Positions 1 through 22,339 of a stretch of 34,767 bases of DNA are shown in pieces (the stretch's first letter is position 1; every line of letters begins with the position of its first letter). Origin of the DNA: Dietzia aerolata. Lineage in GTDB: Bacteria; Actinomycetota; Actinomycetes; Mycobacteriales; Mycobacteriaceae. The position numbers were made by a program, and so were the translations under genes. The stretch spans positions 1 to 34,767 of the forward strand of contig NZ_JAALDM010000005.1 of the NCBI RefSeq assembly GCF_014144865.1, in the 5' to 3' direction. The notes beneath the pieces were generated by a model, which saw only the letters and a list, made by a program, of their open reading frames with translations, was not told the origin of the DNA and did not search any database.

Positions 1-971
1 GCGTACGAGGTCACGGCGTCGGCGAGCCGGTCCGCCGCCGAGACCGCGGGGATCCACGCCGCCGCGGTGCGTCCGCCCACCCCGGGTTCCGCGAGCGCCC
101 GACGTAGGCGGAATTGGAGGTCGGCGAGGGCGCGATAGGACGCGCGGCGCGCGGCCACAAGATCTAGATGACGACGACGAGACCGACCGTCCACGTCGGG
201 AATCGGCTGCGAGGCCAGCCGCAGGTGCTCGGCGATGCGGTCCATGGCTGTGGCGAAGCTGTTCGCGATCCAGACCCGGCGGCTGTGCGGCCAGATCAGA
301 TAACCGAAGACCAGTACCACCAGGCCGCCCACGATCGTGGCCCCGATGCGCTGCACGCTGAAGTTCGCGGTCTCGTCGCCCGGCTGGATGACGTCCACGA
401 GCAGGATGACCGCCGGGGCGATCGCGACGGCCTGTAGCGCGTAGGACCGCATCATGAAGTACGGGACGCAGGCCGACAGGAGCCCGATCGCCACGCCGAT
501 CGCCCACCCCTTGGGCACGAGAAAGAGGATCACGGTCGCGATCACCGCGCCGACCGCCGTCCCGACTACCCGCAGCACCGCCCGGGAGAACACCGAGCCG
601 AAGTCGGGTTTCATCACCAGACAGACCGTCAGAGGGACCCAGAACCAGTGGCTGAACGGAAAATACATCTTGGCGCCCACCGCGATCCCGTAGGCCAGTG
701 ACAGTCGGCAGGCGGCCATCAGGACCTCGTTGCTGAAGGCGGACGTCAGCAGCGGCTCGTGGGCTCGCTGGGAACGCGACGTTCCGCGGTGGGAAGCCCT
801 GTGGTCGGCCGGGCGGATTCTGCTCGAGTGGGGGCTCACGCGGGGGCCTGAGCGGGAGACCGACCGTGGGTCCGCCGGCCGGTTCAGGGCCAGGGCGAGC
901 TGGTCGACACTGCGGCCGAGCATCCCGTCGGCGTATGGTCCGGGGGTTGATGGTGGTGTCGTCGTCGTCAC
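1..971 (-). CDS. FUSC-family membrane protein, C-terminal half (partial)
   Basis: The reading frame runs off the left edge of the window, so at least 323 codons are visible and the C-terminus is missing. After a poorly conserved proline/arginine-rich stretch of about 75 residues, the product has a hydrophobic FUSC-type domain (a WVPLTVCLVMKPD-like segment followed by several membrane helices, with VQRIGATIVGG further on) and then a cytoplasmic Arg-rich helical region. FUSC proteins (fusaric acid resistance and aromatic acid efflux type) are inner-membrane exporters. I place the start at the GTG at 971, which shares a GTGA overlap with the stop of the upstream piece. No clear Shine-Dalgarno precedes it, which suggests translational coupling. 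The N-terminal membrane half is encoded separately at 968-1947, so the two probably form one transporter. Substrate unknown. Confidence 0.72.
   Translation of the reverse strand, partial: MTTTTPPSTPGPYADGMLGRSVDQLALALNRPADPRSVSRSGPRVSPHSSRIRPADHRASHRGTSRSQRAHEPLLTSAFSNEVLMAACRLSLAYGIAVGAKMYFPFSHWFWVPLTVCLVMKPDFGSVFSRAVLRVVGTAVGAVIATVILFLVPKGWAIGVAIGLLSACVPYFMMRSYALQAVAIAPAVILLVDVIQPGDETANFSVQRIGATIVGGLVVLVFGYLIWPHSRRVWIANSFATAMDRIAEHLRLASQPIPDVDGRSRRRHLDLVAARRASYRALADLQFRLRRALAEPGVGGRTAAAWIPAVSAADRLADAVTSY
158..183 (+). repeat. Dispersed A/T + GACGAC motif, copy a
   Basis: AAGATCTAGAT is followed by GACGACGACGAG on the plus strand. It lies inside the FUSC gene, read antisense as RSRRRHLDL with the rare codon CTA. 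Confidence 0.6.
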
Positions 972-982
972 ATATTTTGGTC
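954..982 (-). repeat. Dispersed A/T + GACGAC motif, copy b
   Basis: On the minus strand CCAAAATATGT is followed by GACGACGACGACACC. It sits exactly on the junction of the two FUSC half genes and supplies the stop of one and the GTG of the other. Confidence 0.6.
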
Positions 983-1947
983 AGTCCGGGACGTTACGCC
1001 GGGCGCCGACGTGGACCCGTGGGGCGTTGCATTATCGCCGTTCTTCCCGCGATCCTTCCCGCGGCAGCGCAGGCCCGTGGCCTCGACCTCGGCGGCCAGC
1101 ACGGCGAGGTGATCCGCGGCCACCGACGCCGCCACGGGATCGGTCCCGGCCACCAGGAACGCCTGGGTCCGATCCGCGGCGGTGAGCGCCTGGCCGTCCA
1201 GTACCCACACCCGCGTCGACCAGGAGGGCCGGGCGGTGAGCTCGGCAGCCCGACCGACCGCCGCTTGGTAGGCCCCGGTCGCGCGGCGTCGGGCCTCGGT
1301 GGTGCGGTCCCCACCGTCGGCGAGGTCGGACGTCCTGGCCGCGGCGAGATCGGCCAGGGCCTGCAGCAATGACACGGTGACGATCCGCTGCGGACGGCGG
1401 GGATTGATCAGCATCTCCGCCGCCAACAGCGCGGCATAGAAGAGCGCGCCGACGACGTACAGCCCGATCGCGGTCCACCAGTTGACATGTGGAACTCCCA
1501 TCGCGATGGCGGCGACCAGCAGGAACTGCATACCTCCCACCGAGAACGCGGGTCCCGGGCCGGCGATCGCGCCCGCGATGAACGCGACCACCGCGGCGAG
1601 GACCATGAGCGCCGGCAGCGGCAGATTCTGGGCGAACCCGAGGAGATATCCTGCCGCCGCGATGGGGGTGGAGACGGCGATGATGAGGAAGTTCAGGCGA
1701 TAAGTGCCCTCGCGCTCGCCCGCCGCCAACAGGAGCGCGGCCAGGCCCACCCACATTCCGTCAGCGTGTGACCGAGCAGGGCGCCGAGCACGAACGGTAG
1801 TCCGACGGAGACGCCGGAGCGGATCGTGTGGCCGACGGGCACGCGCGCGGGGGCCACGTGCGCGACGGCGCGGATCCAGTCGGCGGGAGCGCGGGGGACC
1901 GGGACGGTCAGAGGGGTTGGAGTGGGCGGAGTGGGCGGGCCGGTCAA
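968..1947 (-). CDS. FUSC-family membrane protein, N-terminal half, apparent frameshift
   Basis: This is the N-terminal membrane half of a FUSC-type exporter. Reading from a TTG at 1947, preceded by AGGAGG at 1957-1962, the first part gives a Pro-rich leader and then RSGVSVGLPFVLGALLGHTL. The expected continuation, MWVGLAALLLAAGEREG, is in another frame starting at 1756. One base therefore appears to be missing near 1750-1758, or extra bases are present; the sequence as given does not encode one continuous chain. The later part has about five more membrane helices, then a helical cytoplasmic domain and a low-complexity tail ending at the TGA at 968. A product starting at the ATG at 1756 (262 residues) would lack the first helix. 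The frameshift could be a real mutation or a sequencing error. The next gene overlaps by 4 bp and supplies the second FUSC half. Confidence 0.62.
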
Positions 1948-2125
1948 GGGGAACAACCTCCTGAGGGTCGGCCTCACCCTATTCCCGGCGGCGAACCGGC
2001 GCGCATAAATGGAAACTCACGTCGGTGGGGCGGTGGCCGGGGTCGTTTGGGGTCGTGCGGAGCCTGCCGGGGTCGCCCGGCGTGCCTGCGGCGGGGGTGG
2101 CGCAGGCACGGCAGGGAGGCGGCAG

Positions 2126-2165
2126 AAAACCCCGGCCACCTGAACGTGCTGGTGACCGGGGTTTT
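2126..2165 (-). terminator. Rho-independent terminator after tRNA-Lys
   Basis: An inverted repeat with arms AAAACCCCGG (2126-2135) and CCGGGGTTTT (2156-2165) is extended by a short inner ACC/GGT pairing. On the minus strand it lies just downstream of the tRNA and ends in TTTT, as expected for an intrinsic terminator. Confidence 0.7.
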
Positions 2166-2173
2166 CCGGATTG

Positions 2174-2246
2174 TGCGCCATCAGGGACTCGAACCCCGAA
2201 CCCGCTGATTAAGAGTCAGCTGCTCTGCCAATTGAGCTAATGGCGC
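2174..2246 (-). tRNA. tRNA-Lys (anticodon CTT)
   Basis: On the minus strand the sequence starts GCGCCATTAGCTCAATTGGC and folds as a standard 73-nt cloverleaf. The acceptor stem is GCGCCAT/ATGGCGC, the anticodon loop is ACTCTTAATC with anticodon CTT, and the T-loop is GGTTCGAGTCC. The 3' CCA is not encoded. It is followed by a terminator hairpin. Confidence 0.95.
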
Positions 2247-22232: not shown

Positions 22233-22241
22233 TCGTGCCCA

Positions 22242-22274
22242 CCTCGTCGTCGTCGTAAAAAATCTTTTCACACC
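22242..22274 (-). repeat. Dispersed A/T + GACGAC motif, copy e
   Basis: On the minus strand GTGTGAAAAGATTTTTT is followed by ACGACGACGACGAGG. It lies in the gap between the CopD-CtaG and SSB-like genes and faces copy f. Confidence 0.6.
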
Positions 22275-22278
22275 GTCC

Positions 22279-22296
22279 GTCCCTGTCCACAGGGAC
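22279..22296. promoter_or_regulatory. Perfect palindrome upstream of the SSB-like gene
   Basis: GTCCCTGT and ACAGGGAC form 8-bp arms around CC. It lies in the middle of the 167-nt gap before the SSB-like gene, between two facing copies of the dispersed GACGAC motif. It is a candidate operator; CTGTCCACAG also resembles an actinobacterial DnaA box with mismatches. Confidence 0.5.
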
Positions 22297-22309
22297 GTCA
22301 CCGCAGGCG

Positions 22310-22339
22310 GGTGGAAAGAGATATGACGACGACGACATC
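22310..22339 (+). repeat. Dispersed A/T + GACGAC motif, copy f
   Basis: GGTGGAAAGAGATAT is followed by GACGACGACGACATC. It lies 60 nt upstream of the SSB-like start and is inverted relative to copy e, 35 nt away. Confidence 0.6.

Follow-up and report, generated by a model that had tools for sequence, protein, structure and literature searches.

A GAC-rich word spread through the genus Dietzia is apparently kept for the DNA itself and resembles a DNA uptake sequence

What keeps a short, GAC-rich word scattered over both strands of a bacterial genome, inside genes and between them? The question is raised by a stretch of 34,767 nucleotides of DNA from the actinobacterium Dietzia aerolata (positions 1 to 34,767 of contig NZ_JAALDM010000005.1, assembly GCF_014144865.1; hereafter the window), which is a contig of an assembly that is 88% complete and comprises 339 contigs. 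An earlier note on this DNA had listed seven copies of a motif in which an A/T-rich tract is fused to a run of GACGACGAC, and had proposed that selection acts on the DNA itself. All seven copies exist as described, in coordinates as well as in strand, and the estimate that seven of roughly eleven such runs follow an A/T tract was accurate: counting both strands, there are exactly 11 GACGACGAC runs, 7 of which lie behind a tract. The motif belongs to a signal that is found throughout the genus Dietzia, has hundreds of copies and is apparently kept for the DNA itself. This signal is probably a self tag for natural transformation, i.e., a counterpart in the Actinobacteria of the DNA uptake sequences (DUS), a kind of signal which the earlier note did not name but which fits best of those considered.

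The constant part of the signal is the core GACGACGACGA, which is non-palindromic, and only about 11–13 bases are invariant. The core occurs seven times in the window, whereas in simulated sequences (Markov models of the window, orders 1 to 3, with 100 sequences per order) its mean was 0.18–0.32 and its maximum never exceeded 3. These seven occurrences are not identical with the seven copies listed earlier: the copy with its run from 17157 has the shortened form GACGACGACAAC, and the core at 14105 has no A/T tract. In the genome to which the window belongs (G000), GACGACGACGAC is present in 334 copies and the reversed word in 4. A scan of 41 genomes found 67–319 copies of GACGACGACGAC in the other Dietzia genomes, except for G018 (20) and G011 (5), and 2–81 copies in 18 genomes of other genera, where the reversed controls numbered 3–86 and the count was near the control in most. 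A clear excess was found in G034 (74 vs. 10) and G023 (18 vs. 4) and an approximately twofold excess in G032, G035 and G040. The form GACGACGACGAGG, which was searched for in Dietzia genomes, has 80–399 copies in 22 of the 23 and 10 in G011, with reversed controls of 0–2. Among over-represented 12-mers, the GAC word ranks top in a sample of G000, and a form ending in GAG tops a sample of multiple species; in low-GC windows of G017, the core is still above expectation. The earlier note had held that its proposal would fall if a genome scan gave no more copies than shuffled controls; in the scan and the shuffles, the copies exceed the controls.

The placement of the word within genes was analysed in a 1.2 Mb sample of the complete genome of G017, chosen by position (as was the sample of G011). 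The 199 core sites of this sample comprise 77 in the sense frame for aspartate, 70 in the antisense frame for valine, 19 in other frames and 33 between genes. When synonymous codons were shuffled within the 1020 genes called in G017, the antisense sites numbered 94 observed against 18.3 expected (standard deviation 4.8) and the sense sites 104 against 72.5 (standard deviation 4.9); unrelated triplet repeats were near or below expectation. The genes were called by a simple script, with a coding fraction of 0.84–0.88 in G017 and only 0.66 in G000, and the gene calls in G000 are therefore less reliable. Maximal GAC runs of 9, 10, 11, 12 and 13 bases in G017 number 205, 89, 99, 82 and 23, respectively, thereby forming a shoulder at 11–12 bases, which is lacking from runs of CTG, GCC and GAG. 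Slippage would give run lengths that decay smoothly, and as the shoulder is specific to GAC among the four triplets, plain slippage is not the cause. The word seems to leave its mark on proteins as well: relative to shuffled residues, the proteins of G017 contain DDD 1.8 times, DDDD 3.8 times, VVVV 1.9 times and EEE 0.4 times as often, and in G011, which is nearly without the GAC word, DDD is at 1.0 times expectation and VVVV occurs 3 times against 5 expected. Selection on the DNA itself, as proposed earlier, thus seems to be at work, given the excess over shuffled genes and the presence of copies in sense, in antisense and between genes.

The word has dialects, which differ between lineages. 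The form GACGACGACAACG has 144 copies in G000, 118 in G015, 98 in G009, 61 in G008, 32 in G016, 27 in G005 and 0–19 in the other 17 genomes. The first four of these genomes form one supported clade in a tree of the CtaG/CopD protein; this is the one protein tree from which the phylogeny was taken, with 10 of the 23 Dietzia genomes placed in it and G005 outside these 10. Close relatives of the CtaG/CopD protein of the window are found in records named as Dietzia, and some genomes assigned to the genus have rows identical to those of named Dietzia. The GACGACGACAACG dialect agrees with this phylogeny, and the divergent G011 has a separate word, ATGACGNCGGA, with 704 copies there vs. 2–55 in 30 other genomes. 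The 10-base form of this word, TGACGNCGGA, occurs in the genes of G011 44 times in sense and 27 times in antisense, compared with 6.7 and 2.8 after synonymous shuffling. In G024, a member of another genus of the same family, GCGTCGANAAGC is over-represented and GGCGTCGANAAGC exceeds synonymous shuffling (6 and 14 vs. 0.4 and 0.2). Of 61 genomes from the genus of G024, 47 have 20–647 copies of GCTTNTCGACGC, the reverse complement form of GCGTCGANAAGC (reversed controls 0–14 across the 61); genome size and number of species suggest that this genus is Corynebacterium. Nothing comparable to a second word was found in 180 kb of G023.

Two side observations concern these words and genomes. Three copies of GACGACGACAACG stand in tandem, with a spacing of 12 bases, at G016:C35:153689-153725. 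A different word, CCGATCGG, is under-represented both in the G000 sample (28 seen, 114 expected) and in G023 (18 vs. 56), a scarcity that might be as expected for restriction-site avoidance.

The sequences next to the core are less constant. Approximately 15 bases to its left are modestly purine-rich (57–62%), approximately 10 bases to its right are pyrimidine-rich, and the core is followed by GG at about half of the sites in G017 and often by CAACG in the genome of the window and its clade. At least 8 A or T among the 12 bases upstream were found at 18 of 63 core sites in G000 (0.5 expected), and downstream at 0 of 63; at least 7 of 12 upstream were found at 22 of the 63 sites in G000 (2.4 expected) vs. 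7 of 199 in G017 (4.7 expected). The 63 sites come from 348 kb drawn from contigs already known to hold GACGACGACGAC, a choice which biases the density of sites upward but was blind to the A/T tract. In 16 samples from other Dietzia, some overlapping, the tract accompanies 0 of 60 core sites, which are not independent, as some belong to the same species or overlap at one locus. Thus, the A/T tract, which had been taken as a defining part of the motif, marks only the genome of the window among those sampled, whereas the core is genus-wide; the tract is the local version of the left flank in this one genome.

Conservation of position was best studied at a pair of inverted cores in the window, 22254(-) and 22325(+), between a gene for a CtaG/CopD protein and a gene for an SSB-like protein. 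At either site, 15 of 16 aligned Dietzia loci have the core without a mismatch and the sixteenth is one mismatch off, and the position is kept while the flanks vary and the A/T tract is not retained. Among nine further sequences from the genus, both cores are exact in 6, one core is mismatched in L182 and one is lost in L179; G011 has neither word at this locus. When sites were compared between species (12 of 20 loci and the window), the word was nearby in 280 of 317 comparisons vs. 3309 of 19440 for random 11-mers; 264 of the 317 stem from the one inverted pair, and the others gave 28 of 53 (counted by eye). At the site from 17144 to 17169, within a gene of the major facilitator superfamily (MFS), GACGACGAC is nearby in 7 of 7 aligned orthologues, with changes in length around it. 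The copies in the window are collected in the table. As a side observation, the stretch 22232–22400 of the window, upstream of the SSB-like gene, contains between the inverted cores a short inverted repeat, CCCTGTCCACAGGG, with TCCACA in its loop; in relatives the stems are longer and consist of different letters, and the repeat is possibly a terminator or a regulator.

Table. Copies of the motif and of its core in the window.
Positions	Strand	Feature	Context
158..183	+	A/T tract (158-169) and core GACGACGACGA from 170	
954..982	-	A/T tract and core GACGACGACGAC (start 969, - strand)	Overlaps end of open reading frame 968-1756(-)
5721..5749	+	A/T tract and core GACGACGACGACAAC from 5735	In-frame Asp codons within DUF2804 gene
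14105..14115	+	Core GACGACGACGA, no A/T tract	Within HerA-like gene; missing from the earlier list
16448..16476	-	A/T tract and core GACGACGACGACAAC (start 16462, - strand)	Near start of MFS gene (open reading frame from 16287, or 16527 by script-based gene caller)
17144..17169	+	A/T tract and shortened core GACGACGACAAC from 17157	Asp codons, variable stretch of MFS protein
22242..22274	-	A/T tract and core GACGACGACGA, inverted pair member 1	Downstream of CtaG/CopD gene
22310..22339	+	A/T tract and core GACGACGACGAC, inverted pair member 2	Upstream of SSB-like gene at 22400

Could the word arise without being a DNA signal at all, as a by-product of GC-rich codons (in aspartate-rich linkers and valine-rich membrane helices) or of slippage in GAC repeats? 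Most copies in genes do lie in the frame of GAC (Asp) or antisense GTC (Val), and the excess in sense is moderate; however, such a by-product would not account for the antisense excess, the shoulder at run lengths 11–12 for GAC only, the copies outside genes, the counts of GACGACGACGAC in other genera, which in most of the genomes are close to those of the reversed word, or the near absence of the word from G011. Given that the copies outnumber those expected from synonymous shuffling, such a by-product cannot be the whole explanation, and we regard it as highly improbable. A Chi-like recombination signal or a signal for segregation of the type of KOPS (FtsK-orienting polar sequences), read by RecBCD/AdnAB or by FtsK, would likewise be a short, non-palindromic and highly over-represented word, but the leading strand carries only 108 of 199 core sites in G017 and 53 of 95 in G004, i.e., there is no replication-strand bias. 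For these counts dnaA was placed at 2.26 Mb on the G017 chromosome and at the start of that of G004, the terminus was assumed to lie opposite dnaA, and in G004 95 distinct sites were taken from 100 listed of 106 matches. The core is also spread evenly over the deciles of G004 (p 0.28), and sites restricted to the origin or to Ter were rejected on these even deciles. In view of the even spread and the lack of strand bias, for which the earlier note had proposed a test, a strand-skewed origin-terminus signal is unlikely; the note's alternative of a recombination signal is disfavoured by the same negative test, and a Chi-like or KOPS-like word is, all in all, very unlikely. Twelve neighbouring pairs of sites in G017 are less than 300 bases apart, 10 of them opposite in orientation; the number of close pairs expected by chance is approximately 10 (a hand estimate), about as observed, and a role of all copies as terminators or dyads was set aside on this count. 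The dispersal of the copies on both strands, and the A/T tract, which resembles a shared unit in the genome of the window, could be those of a small mobile element or a REP-like (repetitive extragenic palindromic) repeat, yet only about 11–13 bases are constant, the flanks differ and there is no palindrome. Since both members of the inverted pair hold the same place throughout the genus while their flanks vary, the small mobile element suggested earlier is unlikely, and repeats of this kind seem an extremely improbable source of the word.

The main rival, which was among the options of the earlier note, is a nucleoid or chromosome-organising protein specific to the genus, which would bind the word and with which the dialects would have co-evolved. 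The even spread without strand bias, the copies both in genes and between them, the flanks of skewed composition and the one intergenic inverted pair with its strongly conserved position would all agree with such a protein. However, it must explain the different words in related lineages and the near absence of the word from 14 of the 61 genomes of the related genus, both of which a protein that evolves fast could do, and also the 0 cores in three sampled stretches (60 kb) of secondary contigs with a GC content of 0.64, although uptake tags predict the latter likewise. Such a protein is conceivable but on balance unlikely. The reading as an uptake signal is preferred because the word is over-represented, shows no strand skew, lies where proteins can accommodate it, leaves an imprint on the proteome and has dialects, a combination which, of the kinds of signal considered, best matches the DUS and the uptake signal sequences (USS).

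As an uptake tag, the word would be preferred by a DNA receptor on the cell surface, perhaps a minor pilin of a Tad/Flp pilus, and DNA bearing it would then be imported by ComEA and ComEC. Homologous recombination would spread those alleles that match the word better; over time, hundreds of copies would accumulate, in one orientation as runs of aspartate and in the other as runs of valine, at places where the proteins can bear them, and lineages would drift toward different dialects. Candidate parts of this machinery are present in G017, in which the gene for ComEA (with HHH_3 and SLBB domains) overlaps the gene for ComEC. The products of a tad-type locus in G017 are a TadA-type ATPase, a CpaE-like protein, a pair of TadB/C-like proteins that carry T2SSF domains, a Flp-like peptide (DUF4244) and two small proteins resembling TadE/G, of which one has no Pfam match and the other falls just short of the Pfam cut-off; the names CpaE, TadE and Flp are based on gene order and on reading of the sequence.

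Several observations weigh against an uptake tag. The non-Dietzia genome G034 also has an excess of GACGACGACGAC (74 vs. 10 reversed); the density of exact copies, with 399 of GACGACGACGAGG in the 3.7 Mb of G017, is several-fold below that of the Neisseria DUS; and two secondary contigs of G014 (GC 0.73) carry 9 cores in 58 kb, a density like that of the chromosome. The sense excess in G017 is moderate, as noted above, its intergenic sites are barely enriched (the 33 of 199 lie in approximately 14% non-coding sequence), DDDD occurs 3 times against 1.5 expected even in G011, and GCTTNTCGACGC has only 1–7 copies in the 14 genomes of the genus of G024 that nearly lack it. ComEC was found in all five genomes searched, although the match is partial in G000, and also in 10 of 14 control genomes, so that a protein this widespread argues little for the reading. 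A search of the assembly of the window gave no pilus-type ATPase, possibly because this assembly is incomplete, and the match to a Tad ATPase in G011 covers family positions 153–273 only; the frame concerned (L163, G011:C1 near 598415) has 206 residues and may be shortened or split. As candidates for a surface receptor of the word there are only the Tad/Flp locus and ComEA. The literature search gave no data on uptake or transformation in Dietzia, as judged by title; among the matches listed, no title concerned this word or an uptake sequence of Dietzia or Corynebacterium (subscription papers and preprints being mostly outside the scope of the search), and no paper paired Dietzia with "uptake sequence" or with "GACGAC" and "repeat".

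There is about an even chance that Dietzia and its lineage, on the one hand, and a second large genus in the family, suggested to be Corynebacterium, on the other, each evolved a DUS system of their own, with dialects and read by a competence pilus of the Tad/Flp type. If so, the uptake of self DNA by means of a sequence tag would have arisen separately from that in Neisseriaceae and Pasteurellaceae, and this third, actinobacterial case with its dialects would allow a fresh test of how self-recognition in bacterial sex arose. If the word is indeed an uptake tag, Dietzia and its relatives are predicted to be naturally transformable, and the word would be a practical tag for delivering DNA to environmental strains that are hard to transform.

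How does the Dietzia word compare with known systems? Chi and KOPS are short, abundant, non-palindromic words under selection at the level of the DNA, and are strand-skewed with replication; the Dietzia word is likewise short, abundant and non-palindromic but has no strand skew. Uptake sequences are known from the Neisseriaceae and the Pasteurellaceae, and the core of the Pasteurellaceae USS has adjacent A/T tracts. Like the USS, the Dietzia word consists of a core with long flanks of biased composition; unlike in the USS, the A/T flank occurs in one sampled Dietzia genome only, and the two cores are unrelated. In passages of PMC12616744, the uptake sequences of the two families are considered to have evolved independently. 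Transformation of Micrococcus luteus requires comEA, comEC and tad genes, according to passages of PMC6370729 and PMC8467076, and it is in the presence of comEA, comEC and tad-type genes that Dietzia (G017) resembles this Tad/Flp system; the phrase "uptake sequence" is absent from the main text of PMC8467076, and the passages of PMC6370729 that contain it concern Neisseria and a reference. The DUS of the Neisseriaceae is described in parts of PMC3630211 as having species dialects with a common core and, in Neisseria, about 1900 copies per genome. The Dietzia word is unrelated to it in sequence and in phylum, and has a lower density, and any link of it to a pilus would be to one of the Tad/Flp type, whereas the DUS is tied to the minor pilin ComP. 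What the two have in common is a very abundant word of approximately 10–12 bases, with dialects that share a core (PMC3630211).

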